DNA from: Albidovulum litorale
GTDB taxonomy: Bacteria; Pseudomonadota; Alphaproteobacteria; Rhodobacterales; Rhodobacteraceae
DNA: 64,000 bases
Direction: 5' to 3'
Assembly (NCBI RefSeq): GCF_025751495.1
Contig: NZ_JAOWKZ010000001.1
Location: forward strand, 441,920-505,919
Shown: in pieces, positions 51,239-64,000 of the stretch
Numbering within the stretch: the first letter of the stretch is position 1
Layout of the letters: the number at the start of each line of letters is the position of its first letter
Notes under the pieces: generated by a model
What the model saw: only the letters and a program-made list of their open reading frames with translations
What the model was told of the DNA's origin: nothing
The model's database searches: none
Made by a program: the position numbers and the translations under genes

Positions 51239-52831
51239 ATGAACCTCAGATACCAACTCGCCACCGGCCTTGTGCTCGCAGCCCTGATGGGCGGCGCAGC
51301 CTCGGCAAAGACGCTCGTCTACTGCTCGGAAGGCTCCCCTGAGGGCTTCGACCCGGCGCTCTACACGTCCGGCACCACCTTCGATGCTTCCGAGCACACG
51401 ATCTATGACAAGCTGGTGCTCTTTGAAACCGGCACGACCAATGTCATCCCGGGCCTCGCCGAAAGCTGGGAATCCTCGGAAGACGGGCTGGAATATACGT
51501 TCAACCTTCGCAAGGGCGTGAAGTTCCATTCCAACGATCAGTTCACGCCGTCGCGCGATTTCAACGCCGATGACGTGATCTTCTCGTTCGAGCGTCAGGG
51601 TGATGCCGAAAACCCCTACAACCAGGTTTCGGGCGGCACCTGGGAATACTTCAACGGCATGTCGATGCCGGACCTGATCAAGGAAATCGTCAAGGTTGAC
51701 GATTACACCGTCAAGTTCGTGCTGAACCGTCCCGAAGCGCCGATGATTTCGAACCTCGCGATGGGCTTTGCTTCGATCATGTCGAAGGAATATGCCGACG
51801 CGATGCTGGCTGCCGGAACGCCCGAGATGGTGAACCAGGCCCCGATCGGGACCGGTCCGTTCAGCTTCGTCGCCTACCAGAAGGATGCGGTCGTCCGTTA
51901 CAAGGCCAATGCCGACTACTGGCGCGGCGCCTCGCCCATTGACGATCTGGTCTTTGCGATCACGCCCGATGCTTCAGTACGTTACCAGAAGCTGAAGGCC
52001 GGCGAATGTCATGTCATGCCCTATCCGAACCCGGCCGATATCGAGGCGATGAAGGCCGACCCGGATGTGAATATGCTTGAGCAGGAAGGCCTGAACGTCG
52101 GCTACCTCGCCTACAACACCAAGGTTGCGCCCTTCGACAACACCAATGTCCGCAAGGCGCTGAACATGGCGATCGACAAGCAGGCGATCATCGACGTGGT
52201 GTTCCAGGGCTCTGGTCAGGCGGCGAAAAACCCGATCCCGCCGACCATCTGGTCCTACAACGACGCGATCGAGGACGATCCCTATGATCCGGAAGCCGCC
52301 AAGGCCGCGCTTGAGGCCGAAGGCGTCACCGATCTAAACATGAAGGTCTGGGCAATGCCGGTGCAGCGCCCGTACAACCCTAACGCGCGTCGCATGGCCG
52401 AGCTGATCCAGGCCGACATGGCCAAGGTCGGCGTGAATGTCGAGATCGTTTCCTACGAATGGGGCGAGTATCTTGACCGTTCGAAGGCCGAGGACCGTGA
52501 CGGTGCCGTGCTTCTGGGCTGGACCGGCGACAACGGCGATCCGGACAACTTCCTCGCAGTGCTGCTCGGCTGTGACGGTGTCGGCGGTTCCAACCGCGCC
52601 CAGTGGTGCAACGACGAGTTCGAGGCGCTGATCCAGAAGGCGAAGGTCGTGTCCGATCCGGCAGAGCGCACGCGGCTTTATGAAGAGGCGCAGGTCGTCT
52701 TCAAGCGTGAAGCGCCCTGGGCCACGATCGCCCACTCGGTCGTCTTCATGCCCGTCAGCCCGAAAGTGACCGGATACAAGGTCCACCCGCTCGGCGGCCA
52801 TATCTTCTATGGCGTCGATCTGACTGAATAA
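51239..52831 (+). CDS. Dipeptide-type ABC transporter substrate-binding protein
   Basis: The 530-residue secreted protein has a signal peptide ending AASA and SBP family 5 features (LVYCSEGSPEGFDPALYTSG; YTFNLRKGVKFHSNDQFTPS; VRKALNMAIDKQAIIDVVFQGSG). DppA-like proteins bind dipeptides, but family members also bind nickel, haem, amines or opines, so the true ligand is open. Spacing and context place it with dppBCDF. Confidence 0.94.
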   Translation: MNLRYQLATGLVLAALMGGAASAKTLVYCSEGSPEGFDPALYTSGTTFDASEHTIYDKLVLFETGTTNVIPGLAESWESSEDGLEYTFNLRKGVKFHSNDQFTPSRDFNADDVIFSFERQGDAENPYNQVSGGTWEYFNGMSMPDLIKEIVKVDDYTVKFVLNRPEAPMISNLAMGFASIMSKEYADAMLAAGTPEMVNQAPIGTGPFSFVAYQKDAVVRYKANADYWRGASPIDDLVFAITPDASVRYQKLKAGECHVMPYPNPADIEAMKADPDVNMLEQEGLNVGYLAYNTKVAPFDNTNVRKALNMAIDKQAIIDVVFQGSGQAAKNPIPPTIWSYNDAIEDDPYDPEAAKAALEAEGVTDLNMKVWAMPVQRPYNPNARRMAELIQADMAKVGVNVEIVSYEWGEYLDRSKAEDRDGAVLLGWTGDNGDPDNFLAVLLGCDGVGGSNRAQWCNDEFEALIQKAKVVSDPAERTRLYEEAQVVFKREAPWATIAHSVVFMPVSPKVTGYKVHPLGGHIFYGVDLTE

Positions 52832-52845
52832 TAACAATAAAAATC

Positions 52846-52879
52846 GGGCGGGGCCATTTCGGCCCCGCCCTTTCTTTCC
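52846..52879 (+). terminator. Hairpin with T-rich tail between the binding protein and peptidase genes
   Basis: GGGCGGGGCC and GGCCCCGCCC form a ten-base stem with loop ATTTC, followed by TTTCTTTCC. It probably acts as a partial terminator that keeps the binding protein more abundant than the downstream products. Confidence 0.75.
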
Positions 52880-52893
52880 GGGGGAGCCCATTC

Positions 52894-53994
52894 ATGACCG
52901 ACCGTTACGCCGCACATCGTGCGATTGCGCGCGATTTGGGTGTTGATGCCGTGGCACTGGTGCCGGGGCCGAATTTCGAACGCCTCTATGACGCGTCTTT
53001 CGGCACCAACGAACGGCCGATGGTCATCGTCATTCCGGCCGAGGGGACACCCGCGGCCCTTGTCCCCAATCTCGAACTGACCTCCTTCGCCAAGCTCGGT
53101 TTCGAAGGCGAAGTCTTCGACTGGCGCGACCAGACCGGCTACAATGATGCCTTCGCCGCGATGGCGGGGCACCTGCCGCTCGGCTCGGTCGCCGTCGAGG
53201 GTCAGGTCATGCGGGTCTTCACCCATCACGCGCTGACCGCCGCAAATCCTGGCCTGAATGTCGTTGATGCCGAATACCAGATCGCCGGTTTGCGGCTGAA
53301 AAAGACGCGCGAAGAGATTGCGGCACTTTCCGAGGCGATCCGGATATCCGAGGCCGCGCTTGGCGAAACGCTCGATCAGGTCAGGGCCGGCATGACCGAG
53401 ACCCAGGTCGAACGCATCCTCGTCGCCGCCCTCTTCGCCCATGGCGCCGACGATCAGGCCTTTGGCGCACTGGTCGCCGCCTCGGACAACTCCGCCCATT
53501 CCCATGCCCATGCCCGCGACGATTATGAAATCCAGCCGGGCGATGCGCTCCTGATCGACTTCGGCGCCAAGAAACACCGCTTCTGCGCCGATATCACCCG
53601 CACCGTCTTTGTCGGCCATGCCACGGATGAGGCGCAGGCGGTCTATGACACGGTGCTGCGCGCCAACCTGATGGGACATGCCAAGACCGAACCCGGCGCA
53701 ACCGCCCATGATGTCGACGATGCCGTCATTTCGGTGCTGGAAGCCTCGCCCTTCGCCGACCGCATCCGCACCAAGACCGGCCATGGCCTCGGGCGCGACG
53801 TGCACGAGGCCCCCTATATCATGCGCGGCAATCCTCAGGTGCTGGAACCCGGAATGGTCTTTACCAATGAGCCCGGACTTTACCGCACCGGACCCGGCGG
53901 TTTTGGTGTTAGGATCGAGGATGACGTCCTCGTCACCGAAACCGGCTCCCGCTCGCTCACCACTTTCCCGAAAGAACTCAAGGTCGTCGGCTGA
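52894..53994 (+). CDS. M24-family metallopeptidase (Xaa-Pro peptidase type)
   Basis: The 366-residue pita-bread-fold protein has a creatinase-like N-terminal domain and a full M24 metal site: aspartates in LLIDFGAKKHRFCADITRTV, histidine in GHGLGRDVHEAP, glutamates in TNEPGLY and VRIEDDV. Xaa-Pro dipeptidase or aminopeptidase activity is the default prediction. M24 proteins can also split other C-N bonds (creatinase) or even DMSP (DddP). It overlaps dppB by one base, inside the transporter operon. Confidence 0.93.
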   Translation: MTDRYAAHRAIARDLGVDAVALVPGPNFERLYDASFGTNERPMVIVIPAEGTPAALVPNLELTSFAKLGFEGEVFDWRDQTGYNDAFAAMAGHLPLGSVAVEGQVMRVFTHHALTAANPGLNVVDAEYQIAGLRLKKTREEIAALSEAIRISEAALGETLDQVRAGMTETQVERILVAALFAHGADDQAFGALVAASDNSAHSHAHARDDYEIQPGDALLIDFGAKKHRFCADITRTVFVGHATDEAQAVYDTVLRANLMGHAKTEPGATAHDVDDAVISVLEASPFADRIRTKTGHGLGRDVHEAPYIMRGNPQVLEPGMVFTNEPGLYRTGPGGFGVRIEDDVLVTETGSRSLTTFPKELKVVG

Positions 53995-55001
53995 TGCTCC
54001 GCTATCTCCTCTCGCGCCTTCTGACGTTTCTGCCGACCTTCTTCGGCGTGACGGTCATTTCCTTTGCTTTCATCCGCATGCTGCCGGGCGATCCGATCAT
54101 CGTCATGGCGGGCGAACGCGGGGTCAGCGAGGAACGCTATCAGGAACTGGTTCAGCAGTTCGGTTTCGACCGGCCCATCTGGCAGCAGTACCTCGACTAT
54201 CTCGGCGGTGTCGTGCAGGGCGATCTGGGGCAGAGTTTCGTGACCAAAAAGCCGGTCTGGGACGAGTTCTTCGCGCTTTTCCCCGCCACGCTGGAACTCT
54301 CGATCTGCGCGATGATCTTCGCTGTCGCGCTTGGCCTTCCGGCGGGTGTAATCGCGGCGGTGAACCGGGGCAAGCTCTTTGACCGGACGCTGATGTCGAC
54401 AGCCCTCGTCGGCTATTCGATGCCGATCTTCTGGTGGGCGCTCCTGCTGATCATCGTCTTTTCCGGTATGCTCGGGATCACGCCCGTCTCCGGCCGGATC
54501 AGCCTGCTTTACTACTTCAACGACCCATCGGGCTTCATGCTCTGGGATGCGCTTGTGTCGGATCAGAAGGGCGCATTCTGGTCGGCGCTGCATCACCTGA
54601 TCCTGCCAACGATCGTCCTGGGAACCATTCCGCTGGCCGTCATCGCCCGCCAGACCCGCTCGGCGATGCTTGAGGTCCTAAGCGAAGACTATATCCGCAC
54701 CGCCCGCGCCAAGGGCCTCGCGCCCGGTCGCGTCAACGGGATCCACGCGCTTCGTAACGCACTGATCCCGGTCATCACCGTGATCGGCCTTTCGGTCGGC
54801 ACGCTTCTGGCCGGGGCGATCCTGACCGAGACGATTTTCTCATGGCCCGGCATCGGTAAGTGGATGGTCGACAGTATCTTCCGCCGCGACTACCCGGTCG
54901 TTCAGGGCGGCCTTCTTCTGATCGCCGTCATGGTGATGATCGTGAACCTGACCGTGGACGTGCTCTACGGCCTCATCAACCCCAAGATCCGGAAGCGCTG
55001 A
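53994..55001 (+). CDS. Dipeptide-type ABC transporter permease (DppB)
   Basis: The 335-residue protein is a BPD-type inner-membrane permease with six helices. The N-terminal MLRYLLSRLLTFLPTFFGVT is typical of DppB, as is the EAA loop (EDYIRTARAKGLAPGRVNGIHALRNALIP). Confidence 0.95.
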   Translation: MLRYLLSRLLTFLPTFFGVTVISFAFIRMLPGDPIIVMAGERGVSEERYQELVQQFGFDRPIWQQYLDYLGGVVQGDLGQSFVTKKPVWDEFFALFPATLELSICAMIFAVALGLPAGVIAAVNRGKLFDRTLMSTALVGYSMPIFWWALLLIIVFSGMLGITPVSGRISLLYYFNDPSGFMLWDALVSDQKGAFWSALHHLILPTIVLGTIPLAVIARQTRSAMLEVLSEDYIRTARAKGLAPGRVNGIHALRNALIPVITVIGLSVGTLLAGAILTETIFSWPGIGKWMVDSIFRRDYPVVQGGLLLIAVMVMIVNLTVDVLYGLINPKIRKR

Positions 55002-55002
55002 C

Positions 55003-55896
55003 ATGGCCGACACGACCGCAACCGCCACCGCCCGCCCCGGCCGCCTGTCGGAATTCTGGTACTATTTCCGAGAAAACCGCGGCGCCGTGATCGGCCTCTG
55101 GGTCTTCGCCGCCTTCATCGCGGTGGCCCTTTTCGCGCCGATCCTCGCGCCGCACGACCCGACCCAGCAATTCCGCGACGCGCTTCTGCAACCGCCCTTC
55201 TGGCAGGAAGGCGGTTCCCTCACCTATCCGCTCGGCACCGATGCTGTCGGCCGCGACATGCTTTCGCGGCTGCTTCACGGCGCGCGCTATTCCTTCTATG
55301 TCGGCATCATCGTCGTGGCCTTCGCAGCCTCTGGCGGGATCGTCATCGGCCTTCTGGCGGGCTTTGCGCCGAAATGGGTCGATACGATCATCATGCGGGT
55401 GATGGACATCATCCTCGCCTTCCCGTCCCTGCTGCTCGCTCTGGTTCTGGTCGCGATCCTCGGTCCATCCCTCACCAACGCGATGATCGCCATCGCCATC
55501 GTGCTCCAGCCGCACTACGTGCGCCTCACACGCGCGAGCGTGCTGTCAGAGAGGTCGAAGGATTACGTCACGGCGGCCCGTGTCGCCGGCGCGAAGCAGA
55601 CGCGGCTGATGTTCGTCACCGTGCTGCCGAACTGCCTCTCGCCGATCATCGTGCAGGCCGCCCTGTCGTTCTCGACCGCCATCCTCGATGCCGCCGCGCT
55701 CGGCTTTCTCGGCATGGGCGCGCAGCCCCCCACCCCCGAATGGGGCACGATGCTGGCCGAGGCGCGCGAGTTCATCCTGCGCGCTTGGTGGGTTGTGACA
55801 TGGCCCGGCGTTGCGATCCTGATCACCGTTCTGGCCATCAACCTGATGGGCGACGGATTGCGCGATGCGCTCGACCCGAAACTGAAGCGGAGCTGA
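55003..55896 (+). CDS. Dipeptide-type ABC transporter permease (DppC)
   Basis: The 297-residue permease has the OppC N-terminal domain ([21 protein letters not shown]), the [23 protein letters not shown] block and the EAA loop ([18 protein letters not shown]). It starts one base after dppB. Confidence 0.95.
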
Positions 55897-55900
55897 CGCG

Positions 55901-56878
55901 ATGCCCCTTCTCGATATCCGCAACCTCTCGGTCGATTTTGCCACCGCCTCGGGCCAGTTCCGTGCCGTCGATGGTGTCGACGTCTCTGTCGATACCGGCG
56001 ACATCCTCGCCATCGTCGGCGAATCCGGCTCGGGAAAATCTGTCTCCATGCTCGCCATGATGGGCCTACTGCCCTGGACTGCGACGATTACCGCGGACGT
56101 GATGAGCTTCGGCGGCCAGGACCTGCGCGGGCTTTCCGACCGTCAGCGCCGCAAGATCATCGGCAAGGACATGGCGATGATCTTCCAGGAGCCGATGTCC
56201 TCCCTCAACCCCTGCTTCACCGCCGGGTTCCAGATCAAGGAAGCCCTGCGTCTGCATCTCGGGCTCGATGCGAAGGAACGCCACGCCAAGGCCGTCGAGC
56301 TTTTCGAGATGGTTGGTATTCCCGCACCCGAAGACCGGCTGAAGGCCTTCCCGCACCAGTTGTCGGGCGGCATGAACCAGCGGGTGATGATCGCGATGGC
56401 GATTGCGTGCAGCCCGAAACTTCTGATCGCCGACGAGCCGACAACCGCGCTCGACGTAACCATTCAGGCGCAGATTCTCGACCTGCTCACGGGCCTGCAA
56501 CGCGAAACCGGCATGGCACTGATCCTGATCACCCATGACATGGGCGTCGTGGCCGAAACCGCTGAGCGGGTTCAGGTGCAATATGCCGGCCAGAAGGTGG
56601 AGGAACAGCCCGTCGGCGATCTCTTTGAGACGCCTCACCACCCCTATACGGCCGCACTTCTGGCCGCGCTCCCTGAACGCGCCACCTCGCGCAAACTACC
56701 GACGATCCCCGGCGTCGTGCCCGGCCAGTTCGACCGGCCGGCGGGTTGCCTTTTCTCGCCCCGCTGCCAGTTCGCGGATGACAGATGCCGCAGCACGCCG
56801 CCCGCGCCCTGCGGCCCGGAACTCGGCCTCGCCCGCTGCCACTATCCCCTGAACGCCAAAGCGGAGGTCACGGCATGA
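55901..56878 (+). CDS. Dipeptide-type ABC transporter ATPase (DppD)
   Basis: The 325-residue ATPase has Walker [10 protein letters not shown], signature [14 protein letters not shown] and Walker [13 protein letters not shown]. It ends with the oligopeptide/dipeptide C-terminal domain containing [14 protein letters not shown]. It overlaps dppF by four bases. Confidence 0.95.
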
Positions 56879-57831
56879 ACACCCCCGTCGTCGTCGCTGA
56901 AAACCTCACCCGCCACTACGACGTGAAGGGCGGTCTATTCTCGAAGGGCGGCACCGTCCGCGCGGTATCCGAGACGAGCTTCAAGCTTGAACCCGGAAAG
57001 ACGCTGGCCGTCGTCGGCGAGTCCGGCTGTGGAAAATCCACTCTCGCCCGCCTCATCACGATGATCGAGGAGCCGACCTCCGGCACCTTCGCCATCGGCG
57101 GCGATAACGTGACGCCCGAGACCTGGGCGCGACACCGCGCCGACGTGCAGATCGTCTTTCAGGACCCCTACGGCTCGCTGAACCCGCGCCAGCGGATCGG
57201 CTCGATCCTTGAAGAACCCCTGAAGATCAACCGCCCCGACATGCCAGCCGCCGAACGCGAGGCCAAGGCGCGCGACATGCTGAAGCTCGTCGGCCTGCGC
57301 CCTGAGCATTTCGACCGCTACCCGCACATGTTCTCCGGCGGCCAGCGCCAGCGCATCGCAGTGGCCCGCGCGCTGATGCTGGAACCGAAGGTGCTGGTGC
57401 TGGATGAACCCGTCTCGGCGCTCGACCTGTCGATCCAGAGCCAGATCCTGAACCTTCTGGTGGACCTGCAGGAGCGGCTCGGCCTCGCCTACCTCTTCAT
57501 CAGCCATGACCTGTCGGTGGTGAAGCACATGGCCGACGACATCATCGTCATGTATCTCGGCCGCCCGGTCGAGGTCGGCCCCAAGGCCGAGATCTTCGCA
57601 AAGCCGCGCCACCCCTATACCAAGGCGCTCCTCTCGGCGACGCCGATGGCCGACCCCAAGGCGAAGAAGACCCGGATCAAGCTCGAAGGCGAACTGCCCT
57701 CGCCGCTGAACGTGCCCGCAGGCTGCGCATTCGCCCCGCGCTGCTGGAAGGTGAAAGACAAGTGCCGCGCCGAACGTCCAACACTTGGAGATGAGGGGCA
57801 TCCCGCCGCCTGCTTCTTCCCCGAAGCCTGA
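56875..57831 (+). CDS. Dipeptide-type ABC transporter ATPase (DppF)
   Basis: The 318-residue ATPase has Walker [10 protein letters not shown], signature [15 protein letters not shown], Walker [15 protein letters not shown] and the C-terminal [14 protein letters not shown] motif. It pairs with DppD. The ATG at 56875 overlaps the previous stop. Confidence 0.95.
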
Positions 57832-57932: not shown

Positions 57933-59129
57933 ATGGCTGATCCCACGCCCGCCGCCACCGGCAAGACGAAGCTTGTCATCCGCAATATCGGCCAGATCCT
58001 GTCGGGCAAGATCGAGGAACCGCTGATCGACGGCGATTGCGTGGTCTGCGACGGCGACCGGATCACGGCGGTGGGCTATGAGAAGGACCTCGACACCGAC
58101 CGCGCGACGACCGTGGTCGATGCCAAGGGCGTCACCCTCTGCCCCGGCCTCATCGACAGCCATGTCCACCCGGTCATCGGCGACTACACGCCGCGCCAGC
58201 AACAGCTGAACTGGATCGACTCGTGTCTCCACGGCGGCGTCACCACGATGATCTCGGCCGGAGAGGTCCACGCGCCGGGCCGGCCGAAGGACATCGTCGG
58301 CCTCAAGGCGATGGCGATCGCCTCGCAGCGCTGGTACGACAACTTCCGACCCTCCGGCGTCAAGGTCCATTCCGGCGCGCCGGTGCTTGAAGAGGGCATG
58401 GTCGAGAGCGACTTCAAGGACCTTGCCGATGCGGGCGTCAAACTTCTGGGCGAGGTCGGCCTCGGCTCGGTCAAGGCAGGCGAGACGGCGGCCCAGATGG
58501 TCAAATGGGCACGTAAATACGGCATCCAGTCGACGATCCATACCGGCGGCCCCTCGATCCCCGGCTCCGGCCTCATCGACAAGGATGTCGTGCTGGAGGC
58601 GGACGCCGACATCATCGGCCATATCAATGGCGGACATACAGCTTTGCCCGACGACCAGATCACCTGCCTGTGCGAAAGCTGCCTGAGGGGCATCGAGATC
58701 GTCCATAACGGCAACGAACGCGCGGGCCTCCTCGCCATGCGCACCGCCTTCGAACTCGGCCAGCCCGAACGCATCATCCTCGGCACCGACGCACCCGCCG
58801 GGTCCGGCGTCCAACCCTTGGGCATCCTGCGCATGATCGCCATGCTCTCCAGCCTCGGCGATATCCCGCCCGAGATTGCCTTCTGCTTCGCCACCGGCAA
58901 CACCGCACGAATGCGCGACCTCGACTGCGGCATCATCGAACCGGGCAAGGCCGCCGACTTCGTCCTCGTCGACATGGCCCAGCACGCACCGGGCGGCTCT
59001 ATGCTCGGCTCGGTCCATCAGGGCAACCTGCCCGGCGTCGGCATGACGGTGATCGATGGCATCGTCCGCACCACCCGCAGCCGCAACACCCCGCCCGCGA
59101 CCCGACTGCCGGAAGTGATCGAAACCTGA
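57933..59129 (+). CDS. Enamidase-like amidohydrolase
   Basis: The 398-residue metal-dependent hydrolase resembles the enamidase of Eubacterium barkeri nicotinate fermentation, which opens 1,4,5,6-tetrahydro-6-oxonicotinate to 2-formylglutarate. Apparent metal ligands are H77 and H79 (IDSHVHPV), E174 in LLGEVGLGSV, H203 (STIHTGG), H230 (IIGHINGGHT) and D286 (ILGTDAPAG). A glutamate in place of the usual carboxylated lysine fits enamidase. AAGGAGATG precedes the start. The partner enzymes lie convergently at 59316-64000. Confidence 0.82.
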   Translation: MADPTPAATGKTKLVIRNIGQILSGKIEEPLIDGDCVVCDGDRITAVGYEKDLDTDRATTVVDAKGVTLCPGLIDSHVHPVIGDYTPRQQQLNWIDSCLHGGVTTMISAGEVHAPGRPKDIVGLKAMAIASQRWYDNFRPSGVKVHSGAPVLEEGMVESDFKDLADAGVKLLGEVGLGSVKAGETAAQMVKWARKYGIQSTIHTGGPSIPGSGLIDKDVVLEADADIIGHINGGHTALPDDQITCLCESCLRGIEIVHNGNERAGLLAMRTAFELGQPERIILGTDAPAGSGVQPLGILRMIAMLSSLGDIPPEIAFCFATGNTARMRDLDCGIIEPGKAADFVLVDMAQHAPGGSMLGSVHQGNLPGVGMTVIDGIVRTTRSRNTPPATRLPEVIET

Positions 59130-59130
59130 T

Positions 59131-59199
59131 TCCACTTTCTGTCCGAAAATACTCCCGCCGGAGGCAAACCGGAGCGCGCGGGCCCTGCCCGCGTGCGAC
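59131..59199. repeat. Dispersed 'AATACTCC' plus GC-hairpin element
   Basis: CACTTTCTGTCCGAAAATACTCC is followed by a CGCGCGGGC/GCCCGCGTG-type inverted repeat, in the 186-base gap between the convergent amidohydrolase and aminotransferase genes. It may terminate both transcripts. Confidence 0.7.
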
Positions 59200-59315
59200 A
59201 GATGTCGTGCGCCCGCTTGCGGGCGCTCAATCTGAAAACACCTACCGGTCTCGCCGCACGGTCCACCTTCCGCTCGATCCCACCCGCACTTTCCTCAACA
59301 GGCAGCGCCGCCTGA

Positions 59316-60479
59316 TCAGAAAGCAGCGTCCCGGAGGGCAGGCAGGGCGAATTCCACCATCTCTGCCGTCGCTGTAAGGCAGATGCGGAACTGCGCCGGG
59401 CAGTCGAACAGCGTCCCCGGCATGACGAAGACGTTCTTCTCGGCCAGACGCCGCGCGAAGGCCAGCGAGTCGCCCCCCGGCGCGTCTCCCCAGAGATAGA
59501 AGGTGCCCTCGGGTTCCGTGATCCGATACCCCCACTGCCTCAGCGACCCGACCAGCCGGTCACGCTTTGCGGTCAGCGCCGGGATGTCGAGCGACAGCTT
59601 CTCCAGTTCCGGGATCGCGTATTGCATCGTCGCATCCGGGAACCCCCAGCCTAGCGCCGTCTGGGTGGGAAAGATCGCCGCCCGCAGCGCCTCCCTGTCG
59701 GCCTCGGGCATCAGAGGGCTGAGCGCGAGGTAACCGATCCGTTGTCCCGGCGACAAAAGGATCTTGCCGTAGCTGTAATCGATCAGCGTCCATGGATAGA
59801 CCTCCGCCGGCGAGGTGAAGCCCACGCCGTCGAACCGGATCCGACGGTAGGGCTCATCCGACAGGATGAAGATGCGCGCGCCGATACGCTCCGATGCCTT
59901 GTCCAGCAATGCGGCCAGTTCCTTGAGCCGGGCGCGCGAATAGATCCGCCCGGTCGGGTTGTGCGGCGTATTGACGACGACGATCCGCGTACGCGGGGTG
60001 ATCGCCCGTTCGATCGCGTCAAGGTCGAGGTCGTATGTCTGGGGGTCGAGCGGGGTATGCACGCTGACATAGCCCCGGTGGGCAAGGATCGGCGAATAAG
60101 CAAACCAGCCAGGCTTGGGATGGATGACCTCGTCGCCGGGGTTGAGAAGCACGTCGAACGCCAGCGCAATCGCCTTGAACGCGCCTTGCGTCATCGTCAC
60201 GTCGGCCGCCTTGAACGGCAGGCGCAACTCGGCGCTCAACGCCGCGGCCACCGTCTCTGTCGCACTCTCGACGCTCGTCTTGTAGGCGAACCAGTCATTG
60301 GTATGCGGTTCGGCCGCGGTCTTGATCGCATCGACGAGGCCCGCGAGGGGACGCTCATGCGGATTGCCGAAGGTGAAGTCGGCCCGCTGGCCGTCCTCCT
60401 CAAGAAACTGCTCCGCGAATTCCGAGACGACCCGGATGGCCTCACCTGCGCGGCGCGCGCCCTCTGATACGATTGGCAT
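59316..60479 (-). CDS. PLP-dependent aminotransferase, class I/II
   Basis: The 387-residue protein is a fold-type I aminotransferase: NTPHNPTGRIYS (substrate-carboxylate asparagine loop), ILSDEPYRRIRF and the PLP lysine in YSYGKILLSPGQRIGYLAL. The start MPIVSEGARRAGEA at 60479 has GGGAGGAG upstream; longer frames are arginine-rich and unlikely. Substrate is unknown. It is 61 bases after the reductase-like gene on the same strand, and an amine-forming or amine-removing step in the heterocycle pathway is conceivable. Confidence 0.9.
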   Translation of the reverse strand: MPIVSEGARRAGEAIRVVSEFAEQFLEEDGQRADFTFGNPHERPLAGLVDAIKTAAEPHTNDWFAYKTSVESATETVAAALSAELRLPFKAADVTMTQGAFKAIALAFDVLLNPGDEVIHPKPGWFAYSPILAHRGYVSVHTPLDPQTYDLDLDAIERAITPRTRIVVVNTPHNPTGRIYSRARLKELAALLDKASERIGARIFILSDEPYRRIRFDGVGFTSPAEVYPWTLIDYSYGKILLSPGQRIGYLALSPLMPEADREALRAAIFPTQTALGWGFPDATMQYAIPELEKLSLDIPALTAKRDRLVGSLRQWGYRITEPEGTFYLWGDAPGGDSLAFARRLAEKNVFVMPGTLFDCPAQFRICLTATAEMVEFALPALRDAAF

Positions 60480-60540
60480 TCGCTCCTCCCATCTCTGCGG
60501 CCCAAAAAAACGGCCGCGATAGTCATAAAATAGCCCTGCG

Positions 60541-62016
60541 TCAGTCGCGGCTGGCGTCACGTTTTCCCGGTCGCAACGGCGGGGTCTTGATGACCCTGCG
60601 TTCGATCTCACCCGCGATCTCCTCGACCCGGCGGACCTGACCCATATGGCCCCCAAGCGCGGCGTAATCGTCAAGCCGCATGGTGAACTCGATCGGCGCC
60701 ACCAGCGCCGGCGTTGGCACATAGCCGAAAGCGTTCGACGGCATTTCGGTCACATCGGCCATGAAGGTGATACCGCCGCCGGGCCAGATATAGCACTCCG
60801 CCCCGCCGCAGGTCACATTCGTCACCGCCTCGCGCACCGACCGCGTAAGCCGAACCGGGTTCTCCGTCACCCCGGCCCTCAGAGACCCGCCAGCCCCGCC
60901 CATGAAGACGACCGATGTCATCGACGGCTCGCAATTCTCCGCGATCCTCTCAACCGATTGTCTGAGGCGCTCCGGCAGGTCTGTCTGCACCGGCCGAAGA
61001 TCGGCGTCGAGCACATAGTACCCATACTGCTCACCCGTGGTCGAAACCATAAGCAGCGTCAGGCCCGGCCGCGCGGGCGCCCGCCATGGCCCGAGGATCG
61101 TCAGCGGGTCCAGAATATTCGTGCCGCCCCAGCCGGTTCCCGGCTCCGCCACGCGGAAATAGCGGCCGGGCGTCGATTTGTGGCCGAGGATCTTGATCCC
61201 GGTAGGCTCGATCCCCAGAACCTTGCCCGCCTGATGTTCGGAAAGGACGCCGGTGATGTGATCGTCCACCACCACAACCTCATCCACGAGCCCATGCCAT
61301 TGCTTGGCGAACATGCCGATTGTCGCGGACCCGCAGCCGACCCGCATCAGATGTTCTTCCTCGCCATTCACGACAGGCGGCCTGCCCGCCTGCAACACAA
61401 CGTCGGCCCCGCCGTCGATACTCATCTCCACCGCTTCGCGGTTGCACAGGCGCAGAAGCGCATCGCAGGTGACCCGGCCTTCCTTCTTGCCGCCACCCGT
61501 CAGGTGATGCACGCCGCCCAAGGACAGCATCTGCGAGCCGTATTCGGCCGTCATCACATGGCCGATGGGCTCGCCATCGACCCTCACCGGTGCCGCCTCG
61601 GGCCCCAGATAGCGGTCGGTGTCGATCTTCACCTTGGCCCCGCAATAGGAAAATATCCCCTCGGTCACGATGGTGACCATGTCGACGCCATCATGATCCT
61701 GCGCCACGATGAAGGGGGCGGGCTTGTAGTCGGGATAGGTTGTGCCGGCGCCAATCGCGGTGATGAAGGGCCGGTCAGTCCTTAGCAGGTCGCCGTCCCA
61801 CTCGCCCGCCTCCAACTCCAGGAAAGGCACCACCTGACCGTCGCCCTCTTTCGCCGCCTCCAGCACCGTGAACGGGTCGAGCCGCACCAGCTCACCGCCC
61901 TCATTGGCATAGCGGTCACAGGCCCCGGCGCGATCCTCGGCGATGTAACACATGACCGGACAGGCATCGCAACGGATCTTGTCTTTCATACGGGATTCAA
62001 CGGCTTGTTTTACCAA
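60541..62016 (-). CDS. 6-hydroxynicotinate reductase-like Fe-S protein
   Basis: The 491-residue protein resembles 6-hydroxynicotinate reductase (Hnr) of E. barkeri in size and in its cysteine-rich start, C16-x2-C19-x3-C23 and C33 (CDACPVMCYIAEDRAGACDRY), a likely [4Fe-4S] site. Further features are GIFSYCGAKVKID, MLSLGGVHHLTGGGKKEGR and CGGAECYIWPGGG. Hnr reduces 6-hydroxynicotinate to the tetrahydro form with ferredoxin. Translation probably starts at a TTG at 62016 with GGGAGGG upstream; an ATG at 61989 lacks a site. Confidence 0.8.
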   Translation of the reverse strand: MVKQAVESRMKDKIRCDACPVMCYIAEDRAGACDRYANEGGELVRLDPFTVLEAAKEGDGQVVPFLELEAGEWDGDLLRTDRPFITAIGAGTTYPDYKPAPFIVAQDHDGVDMVTIVTEGIFSYCGAKVKIDTDRYLGPEAAPVRVDGEPIGHVMTAEYGSQMLSLGGVHHLTGGGKKEGRVTCDALLRLCNREAVEMSIDGGADVVLQAGRPPVVNGEEEHLMRVGCGSATIGMFAKQWHGLVDEVVVVDDHITGVLSEHQAGKVLGIEPTGIKILGHKSTPGRYFRVAEPGTGWGGTNILDPLTILGPWRAPARPGLTLLMVSTTGEQYGYYVLDADLRPVQTDLPERLRQSVERIAENCEPSMTSVVFMGGAGGSLRAGVTENPVRLTRSVREAVTNVTCGGAECYIWPGGGITFMADVTEMPSNAFGYVPTPALVAPIEFTMRLDDYAALGGHMGQVRRVEEIAGEIERRVIKTPPLRPGKRDASRD

Positions 62017-62017
62017 C

Positions 62018-64000
62018 TTAACCCTCCCTTGCAGCGCGGATCGCAGCCAGGATCCGATCGGGCGTAGCCGGCAGCCGCGTCACCCTTGCGCCACAAGAAT
62101 GCCGGATCGCCGAGAGGATCGCCGGTGCCGTCGGGATCAGCACATGTTCACCCAGCCCCTTTGCACCGTAAGGTCCATTGGGGTCGGCGACCTCCACGAT
62201 ATGCGAGGTGATCGGCGGTACGTCCCCGATCGTCGGGATGAGGTAGTCGTGCAGGTTGTCGGTCCGGCCAGGAATGTATTCCTCCATCAGCGCCATCCCG
62301 ATCCCCTGCGCCACGCCGCCATGGATCTGCCCCTCAACCAGAACCGGGTTGATCGCGCGTCCGACATCGTGGGCGGCATGGATGTGGTCGAGCGTCACGG
62401 TGCCAAGTTCAGTATCCACCGTCAGTTCCACCATCTGCGCGGTATAGCCGTAAACGGCATAGGGCACGCCCTGCCCGTTTTCGTCCAGAGGCGAGGTCGG
62501 CGGGTCATATGTCTCTGCCGCCTCGATCACATAACCATCGCCAGCAGGCAGCGCGGCATGATGCAGGGTGCCGTCCGGCGCGGTCACTCTCACCTCTCCC
62601 GGAGCGAGGGCAATGCGCCCCTCTGTCGCGTTCGTCAGCCGCAGGATGTCGGCGCGCAGCGCCAGCCCCGTCAGCCGCGCGGCATTGCCCGAGACATAGG
62701 TCTGGCGCGAGGCGGAGGTCTTGCCGGCATCGGGCGTCACTCCGGTATCGGGACCAATCAGGTCCACATTCCGGACGTCCACACCGAGCGCCTCGGCGAA
62801 GATCTGGGCGATGACCGTATTGGCGCCCTGACCGATATCCATCGCCCCCTGATGCAGGACGATCCGCCCGTCGCCCGTGATCCCTGCACGGATCGTCGAC
62901 GGGTTCGGCAGCGAGGTATTGCCGCAGCCATACCAGCCGCAGGCGATTCCCACGCCTTTGCGAAGAACGCCGAACTGAGCATTGAATTTGTTCGCATTCT
63001 CCAACGCGGCAACCCACGCAGGACGCAAGGCATCCAGACACGGTTTGATCCCTACCGCCCCGTCGAAGACCTGCCCCGTGGCGGTCGGAATACCGTTGTC
63101 GAGCGCGTTTAAATACCGGAACTCCAGCCGGTCCAGCCCGAGCCTTTCAGCCAGATCGTCGAACAACGCCTCCTGCGCGATGGCGGCCTGAGGCACCCCG
63201 AAACCACGGAAGGCGCCGGCAGGAACGCAGTTGGTGTACACGCCTTCCGTATGCGCGACATAATCCGCATGGGCATAGGGCCCGCCCGCGTGGACCGGCA
63301 CGCGATTGGCCACGGTCGGCCCCCAGGAAGAATGCGCGCCGGTGTTGAAGGTGCCATCAAAGGCAAAGCCCGACAGCTTGCCATCCTGCGTCGCCCCCAC
63401 CCGCACCCGCATCTGTGCCGGATGTCGCTTCGTCGTCGAGGCCATTGATTCCGAACGTGAATACGTCATCCACACCGGGCGTTTCAGATGCCAGGCGGCC
63501 AGCGCGACATGCGGGTGGAAGGAGATGTCGAGCTTCGATCCGAAGCCGCCGCCCACTGCGGTCGGCACCACCCGCACCGCGTCGGGGGAAAGCCCCAGAA
63601 TCTCGGCCACGGAATCCCGCGCCATGACCGGGGCCTGCGTGCCGCCATGGACCTCGATCCGCCCGTCCACCCAGTCGGCATAGCCCGCCTCGGGTTCGAT
63701 ATAGGCGTGTTCGATGAAACGAGTCTCGAACTCCCCCTCAACGACAATATCGGCCCTTGCGAGCGCCGCCTCTGCATCGCCCTTCTTCACGAAGCCCCGG
63801 CACATGACATTCGCGGCATGGCCCTCGTGGAAGGGCTCCAACGTCTTCGCATCTTTGGGTTCGCGGGCTGCGTCTATGGGTATCCAAGTGATTGGGAAAG
63901 ACGACAAATCCAGTGCCATCACGCTCTCGGCCAGGCCAACGACCGCCGCAACGGCCTCGCCCCGGAACCGGGCGGTTTCCTCGGCATAGACCGGCTGGTC
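62018..64000 (-). CDS. Molybdenum hydroxylase large subunit, 5' end beyond window
   Basis: At least 660 residues of a xanthine dehydrogenase-family molybdopterin subunit are present; the frame is open to the edge, where it reads DQPVYAEETARFRGEAVAAV. Cofactor motifs are VGGGFGSKLD, GAFRGFGVPQAA, GQGANTVIAQIFAEALG and GRAINPVLVEGQIHGGVAQG. The catalytic glutamate is in GAKGLGEHV. Such enzymes hydroxylate N-heterocycles such as nicotinate, xanthine or isoquinoline. It overlaps no gene but ends one base before the reductase-like gene, so the pair is coupled. Confidence 0.92.
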   Translation of the reverse strand, partial: DQPVYAEETARFRGEAVAAVVGLAESVMALDLSSFPITWIPIDAAREPKDAKTLEPFHEGHAANVMCRGFVKKGDAEAALARADIVVEGEFETRFIEHAYIEPEAGYADWVDGRIEVHGGTQAPVMARDSVAEILGLSPDAVRVVPTAVGGGFGSKLDISFHPHVALAAWHLKRPVWMTYSRSESMASTTKRHPAQMRVRVGATQDGKLSGFAFDGTFNTGAHSSWGPTVANRVPVHAGGPYAHADYVAHTEGVYTNCVPAGAFRGFGVPQAAIAQEALFDDLAERLGLDRLEFRYLNALDNGIPTATGQVFDGAVGIKPCLDALRPAWVAALENANKFNAQFGVLRKGVGIACGWYGCGNTSLPNPSTIRAGITGDGRIVLHQGAMDIGQGANTVIAQIFAEALGVDVRNVDLIGPDTGVTPDAGKTSASRQTYVSGNAARLTGLALRADILRLTNATEGRIALAPGEVRVTAPDGTLHHAALPAGDGYVIEAAETYDPPTSPLDENGQGVPYAVYGYTAQMVELTVDTELGTVTLDHIHAAHDVGRAINPVLVEGQIHGGVAQGIGMALMEEYIPGRTDNLHDYLIPTIGDVPPITSHIVEVADPNGPYGAKGLGEHVLIPTAPAILSAIRHSCGARVTRLPATPDRILAAIRAAREG

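Follow-up and report, generated by a model that had tools for sequence, protein, structure and literature searches.

A probable reductive nicotinate degradation module on the chromosome of Albidovulum litorale (Rhodobacteraceae) and the tight link between its reductase and UPF0280

Genes for a Mo-hydroxylase, a protein resembling 6-hydroxynicotinate reductase (Hnr) and an enamidase-like amidohydrolase (Ena) lie close together in Albidovulum litorale (Rhodobacteraceae). Do they form one catabolic module, which of their neighbours belong to it, and is nicotinate its substrate? The window, i.e., the whole stretch of 64,000 nucleotides that was analyzed, covers positions 441920-505919 of a contig in the 4.05 Mb genome. 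The reading was extended past the window end (64000), and coordinates above that value continue the window numbering. A preliminary description had attributed the three enzyme types, with an aminotransferase inside the group, to the reductive degradation of an N-heterocycle. All four genes are located at the positions given there. The three enzyme types are indeed grouped, but Ena lies outside the Hnr operon, to which it is convergent. An inspection of the genes beyond 64000, which had also been proposed, was carried out: the minus-strand Hnr operon continues with an FAD subunit, AA_synth (DUF1185) and UPF0280, and is flanked by a divergent MarR gene. The features are:

51239-57831, plus strand: Opp-type ABC transporter with an M24 peptidase, immediately 5' of Ena (accessory)
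57933-59129, plus strand: enamidase-like amidohydrolase (Ena), convergent to the Hnr operon
59271-59299, minus strand: what is probably left of an Hnr 3' end, between Ena and the aminotransferase insertion
59316-60722, minus strand: ORF of a PLP-dependent aminotransferase, likely start 60485 (59316-60485) (accessory insertion)
60541-62016, minus strand: Hnr-like protein, 491 aa
62018-64774 (or to 64717 from the second Met), minus strand: fused [2Fe-2S]-Mo hydroxylase, with 62018-64000 inside the window
64714-65592, minus strand: FAD subunit of the hydroxylase (FAD_binding_5 domain)
65558-66145, minus strand: AA_synth (DUF1185), in the operon beyond the window end
66142-67062, minus strand: UPF0280, in the operon beyond the window end
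67185-67676, divergent from the Hnr operon: MarR

Because the ORFs of the Hnr operon abut or overlap, the genes from UPF0280 to Hnr are likely co-transcribed. The MarR protein is probably their regulator. Beyond MarR, there are a second ABC set (recognized by reading translations) and genes for a member of the enolase superfamily, for a racemase whose score exceeds the cysteate-racemase cut-off and for a protein resembling histidinol dehydrogenase; these are left out of the module. A 33-base intergenic repeat (59133-59165), located 3' of the enamidase gene, has 11 more matches in the genome (76-100% identity).

We consider it probable that the locus is a chromosomal module for nicotinate catabolism of the reductive (THON) type. 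Its substrate, all of its reactions and the parts played by UPF0280, AA_synth and MarR are what we infer from gene content, conservation, co-occurrence and the predicted fold of UPF0280. The FAD-linked Mo-hydroxylase would convert nicotinate to 6-hydroxynicotinate, which Hnr, fed by ferredoxin, would reduce to 1,4,5,6-tetrahydro-6-oxonicotinate. Ena is predicted to open this ring, yielding 2-formylglutarate and ammonia (NH4+). By analogy with Azorhizobium, where a decarboxylation step precedes glutarate, 2-formylglutarate would then be decarboxylated and oxidized to glutarate. UPF0280, a near-exclusive partner of Hnr in the class, would most likely act as a maturation factor with an ApbE-like fold.

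At E 0.001, neither Pfam nor NCBIfam has a family that matches Hnr, which also lacks a convincing match among solved sequences. Many of its homologs in plasmid records are annotated as 6-hydroxynicotinate reductase. Eight cysteines (C16, C19, C23, C33, C125, C184, C228 and C362) are invariant in 53 sequences and could bind Fe-S clusters. The Hnr of E. barkeri carries a covalently bound flavin; in the window protein, no site for a flavin could be assigned. The window Hnr is 69-72% identical to that of Bradyrhizobium, and its link to E. barkeri Hnr is indirect, via the Hnr of Bradyrhizobiaceae; the homolog of strain SG-6C is 42% identical to the E. barkeri protein and is encoded in a conserved cluster, as stated in the part of PMC3511419 used here.

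The reductive route had been portrayed as well described only in a few organisms. Its rarity is refuted by the distribution of Hnr, which occurs in 92 of 248 sampled Rhodobacteraceae genomes (91 of 247 genera), in 44 of 289 sampled alphaproteobacterial genomes (the 43 others than that of the window at 60-73% identity) and in 21 of the 22 genomes of the window's genus. Hnr is also found in 26 plasmid records, 16 of them from Sulfitobacter or Rhizobium. The named genome collection holds at least 589 Hnr relatives, and the closest among the best 80 of these is from Defluviimonas salinarum (92%); L047 from this species and G814 (L161, L178), whose contigs are equally long (294293 bases), are probably one genome, counted once. 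Reductive nicotinate breakdown would thus be no curiosity but a trait that is likely common among aerobic rhodobacteria.

For Ena, the enamidase from E. barkeri (2VUN) is the sole strong solved relative (E 3.5e-110, 45% identity; next match 1e-5). An alignment of 43 sequences, 2VUN among them, shows no variation at H77, H79, E174, H203, H230 and D286, which we take to be metal and catalytic residues; this agrees with the matching metal ligands described earlier. Relative L048 has Hnr, with no enamidase within reach.

The ORFs in 86 Hnr loci were labelled after the sequence of a reference set that they matched best in BLAST, with thresholds. Both 10 kb flanks are available for 57 of these ("complete neighbourhoods"); they are not independent, as 19 are from Bradyrhizobium, and because 80 of the loci were the top-ranking ones among at least 589, the set is biased toward relatives of the window locus. 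UPF0280 is present in 55 of the 57, AA_synth in 54, MarR in 47, a Liv-type binding protein in 39, ferredoxin-NADP reductase in 26 and a Rieske oxygenase in 5. A homolog of the ferredoxin-NADP reductase (61%) is encoded elsewhere in the window genome. As ring opener, 35 complete neighbourhoods have only the enamidase and 8 only the hydantoinase/oxoprolinase type; none has both and 14 have neither. Hnr, Mo-hydroxylase and enamidase recur together in many genomes, which upholds the reductive N-heterocycle reading.

Several observations from these loci deserve mention in their own right. Hydantoinase/oxoprolinase genes (A, mostly also B) replace the enamidase in L041-L043, L049-L051, L053-L055, L060, L111 and L177, which suggests an ATP-dependent ring opening. 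A Rieske oxygenase is encoded in 8 of the 86 loci (7 at the thresholds of the neighbourhood survey), namely L042 (VanA_C type), L046, L056, L058, L070, L075, L110 and L120; our guess is a candidate N-demethylase for trigonelline-like compounds. HYP1373 (L043:16897-18267), a protein of 457 aa with no Pfam or NCBIfam family, occurs in 10 of the 86 loci, beside LivH/LivM-type transporters. The window's genus holds three cluster types (L173, L175, L176, L177): the window type, one that resembles roseobacter clusters and has two AA_synth genes, and the hydantoinase type.

The complete hydroxylase ORF encodes a fused [2Fe-2S] and Mo protein (918 aa) of the xanthine dehydrogenase (XDH) family, with Fer2, Fer2_2, Ald_Xan_dh_C, MoCoBD_1 and MoCoBD_2 domains and a separate FAD_binding_5 subunit. 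The Glu of its GAKGLGE motif, presumably the catalytic one, is invariant in 44 of 44 sequences. In a phmmer search, the nearest solved relatives are aldehyde oxidoreductases, followed by 4-hydroxybenzoyl-CoA reductase and then by nicotinate dehydrogenase from E. barkeri, so that the substrate cannot be named from sequence alone. Kitts is said to have described in 1992 that the nicotinate hydroxylase of Azorhizobium passes electrons to cytochrome c. A cytochrome-linked (NicB-like) nicotinate dehydrogenase was considered for the window and rejected, since Fer2, Ald_Xan_dh_C and MoCoBD domains with a separate FAD subunit are found instead.

Many other Hnr loci have another hydroxylase type, defined by its resemblance to a protein from Comamonadaceae that has Mo-binding as well as cytochrome c domains (the cytochrome domains were read in that example alone). 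Among the complete neighbourhoods, 27 have only the XDH type, 26 only the other type, none both and four neither, although one of these four (L061) has a broken XDH-type gene and another (L051) partly matches the other type. Hydroxylase labels, assigned at a looser threshold, were placed on a quick maximum-likelihood tree with 87 Hnr sequences (SH-aLRT support only); 7 rows were unlabelled, and the branches of L044 and L043 are long. The labels require three changes, at least two of which are forced by well supported branches. As the two types never occur together and have switched at least twice, they probably do the same job and are functional replacements for one another. The first enzyme of the reductive nicotinate route would then exist in two exchangeable forms. 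A "new variant" of this route had been anticipated; the FAD-linked XDH-like hydroxylase does differ, though roseobacters commonly have this type, too.

An exchange of hydroxylases is also compatible with a changed substrate. The same chemistry might act on another pyridine or lactam, with the FAD-linked hydroxylase marking a shift to a substituted nicotinate, picolinate or an N-methyl derivative, and with Hnr and the enamidase following. The Rieske oxygenases in 5 of 57 neighbourhoods, the hydantoinase/oxoprolinase-type gene instead of the enamidase in 8 of 57, and the different transporter at the window locus would agree with this. We nevertheless consider it unlikely: Hnr, UPF0280 and enamidase stay while the hydroxylase types switch, and 41 other proteobacterial enamidases are 69-95% identical to that of the window with either hydroxylase. 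Nicotinate is the likeliest substrate because the other hydroxylase type sits in a Bradyrhizobium cluster published as nicotinate-degrading (PMC3511419, in the part used here). A chance assembly, in which the enamidase serves the Opp/M24 operon while the Hnr operon is separate, is extremely improbable. Ena, whose orientation is convergent to that of the Hnr operon, begins 101 bases past the Opp ATPase gene on the same (plus) strand. The Opp-type set (binding protein, two permeases and two ATPases, named by reading translations) and the peptidase (M24 and Creatinase_N domains) adjoin Ena also in L173 and in Defluviimonas salinarum (L047 and L178, as noted probably one genome). However, in L174 the Opp block is absent next to Ena, which still adjoins Hnr, and 35 of the 57 complete neighbourhoods have an enamidase close to Hnr although their surroundings differ. 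An M24 gene is present in only one of the 57, and the Opp/M24 block is accessory to the module.

Very unlikely, too, is a pathway role of the aminotransferase, which would trap the aldehyde from ring opening in the form of an amino acid and thereby create a new branch. It lies on the strand of Hnr, its likely start 55 bases past that gene, and a single other genome of the genus, G817, also has it beside Hnr. The Hnr-Ena junction was compared in ten loci; two (L163, L127) matched Hnr alone, leaving seven genomes readable across. The stretch around 59300-60592 is absent in six of these seven (L047/L161, L158, L159, L160, L162, L164), even in L158, where Hnr is 97% identical, and is present between Hnr and Ena in L166 (G817). 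None of the 57 complete neighbourhoods has an aminotransferase. Homologs of at least 60% identity occur in the window genome (G000) and in six others of the 22 genus genomes, but adjoin Hnr in only two (G000, G817), while the other five (60-66%) carry them away from Hnr. An insertion-free stretch in L158 (1511-1539) matches both 59271-59299 and 60599-60627 of the window; compared directly, these two have only a short, weak match (14 bases, E 0.035). The Hnr 3' end in the window is unlike that of L158, and 59271-59299 is probably a remnant of an Hnr 3' end beside the enamidase. The aminotransferase is a local accessory insertion, gained or lost several times, outside the pathway. It was thus correctly placed inside the group, but is not a conserved part of the module.

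Returning to the nicotinate module, its least expected feature is the very tight link between UPF0280 and Hnr. UPF0280 is encoded in 44 of 44 Hnr-bearing alphaproteobacteria versus 2 of 245 that lack Hnr, and these two are weak. The window protein scores 330.7 bits with the curated model NF003322 (cut-off 290). Its homologs are annotated as "UPF0280 family protein", there is a profile match to 2O34, and the family is presumably COG2122. The predicted fold is ApbE-like. In the AD-x-x-AT motif, which we take to be the Mg site of ApbE, D211 and A214 are invariant and T215 is found in at least 90% of 32 UPF0280 sequences, when aligned with ApbE rows (9 of 12 loci) themselves chosen by this motif. 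The His...DPR-x-G loop, located between TSG and AD-x-x-AT in the ApbE-row consensus, is absent from the 32 sequences. Within the genus (L173, L174, L178), UPF0280 is less conserved than its neighbours (62-85% identity where Hnr has 89-97%). UPF0280 is probably a maturation or partner protein of Hnr, and it is possible that it transfers flavin to it. The window AA_synth is matched by 2QTP from the same family (E 3.5e-96). AA_synth is a frequent partner of Hnr, and one may guess that it serves a step after ring opening.

In Desulfovibrio and methanogens, COG2122 has been connected with DUF39 in a homocysteine pathway (PMC5764234, in the part used here), whereas its partner here is Hnr; no DUF39 gene was found in 299 sampled genomes of the phylum Pseudomonadota. 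It is tempting to speculate, if only tentatively, that UPF0280/COG2122, with its ApbE fold, is a general maturase of Fe-S enzymes, which in this class installs the flavin or another modification that Hnr requires, that the need for it in DUF39 homocysteine synthesis stems from like chemistry with a different client, and that AA_synth processes 2-formylglutarate in aerobes. If so, the reductive route would be a common aerobic nicotinate route of rhodobacteria. Hnr offers a testable client for UPF0280.

Among known systems, E. barkeri is the classical case, and Alhapel reportedly described its nicotinate fermentation gene set, including Ndh, Hnr and Ena, in 2006. The window resembles it in having an enamidase homolog with the presumed active site intact, a Mo-hydroxylase and an Hnr-like protein. 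However, in E. barkeri Ndh the Mo protein is divided into two subunits (chains A and B of 3HRD), while the window hydroxylase is fused, and none of the E. barkeri enzymes acting after ring opening was noticed in the stretch read. The AA_synth/DUF1185 proteins BB2672 and SPO0826, one of which is 2QTP, belong to the same Pfam family as the window protein; the part of PMC2954203 used here reads their context as amino-acid metabolism and does not mention nicotinate. The closest published counterparts are the nicotinate clusters of Azorhizobium caulinodans and Bradyrhizobiaceae, described from BLAST comparison and pathway work in the part of PMC3511419 used here, where the Azorhizobium route runs via glutarate. 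All 22 Bradyrhizobium loci surveyed have the set of Hnr, UPF0280, AA_synth and MarR, as does the window locus, and an enamidase is in view in 17. These loci have a Liv-type transporter and a hydroxylase 54-61% identical to the Comamonadaceae protein with cytochrome c domains, together with a small [2Fe-2S] subunit, whereas the window has Opp-type neighbours, a fused XDH-like hydroxylase with an FAD subunit, and, unlike Bradyrhizobium, an operon led by UPF0280 and AA_synth. The module is ordinary in kind, widespread and partly published, and differs by its hydroxylase variant.
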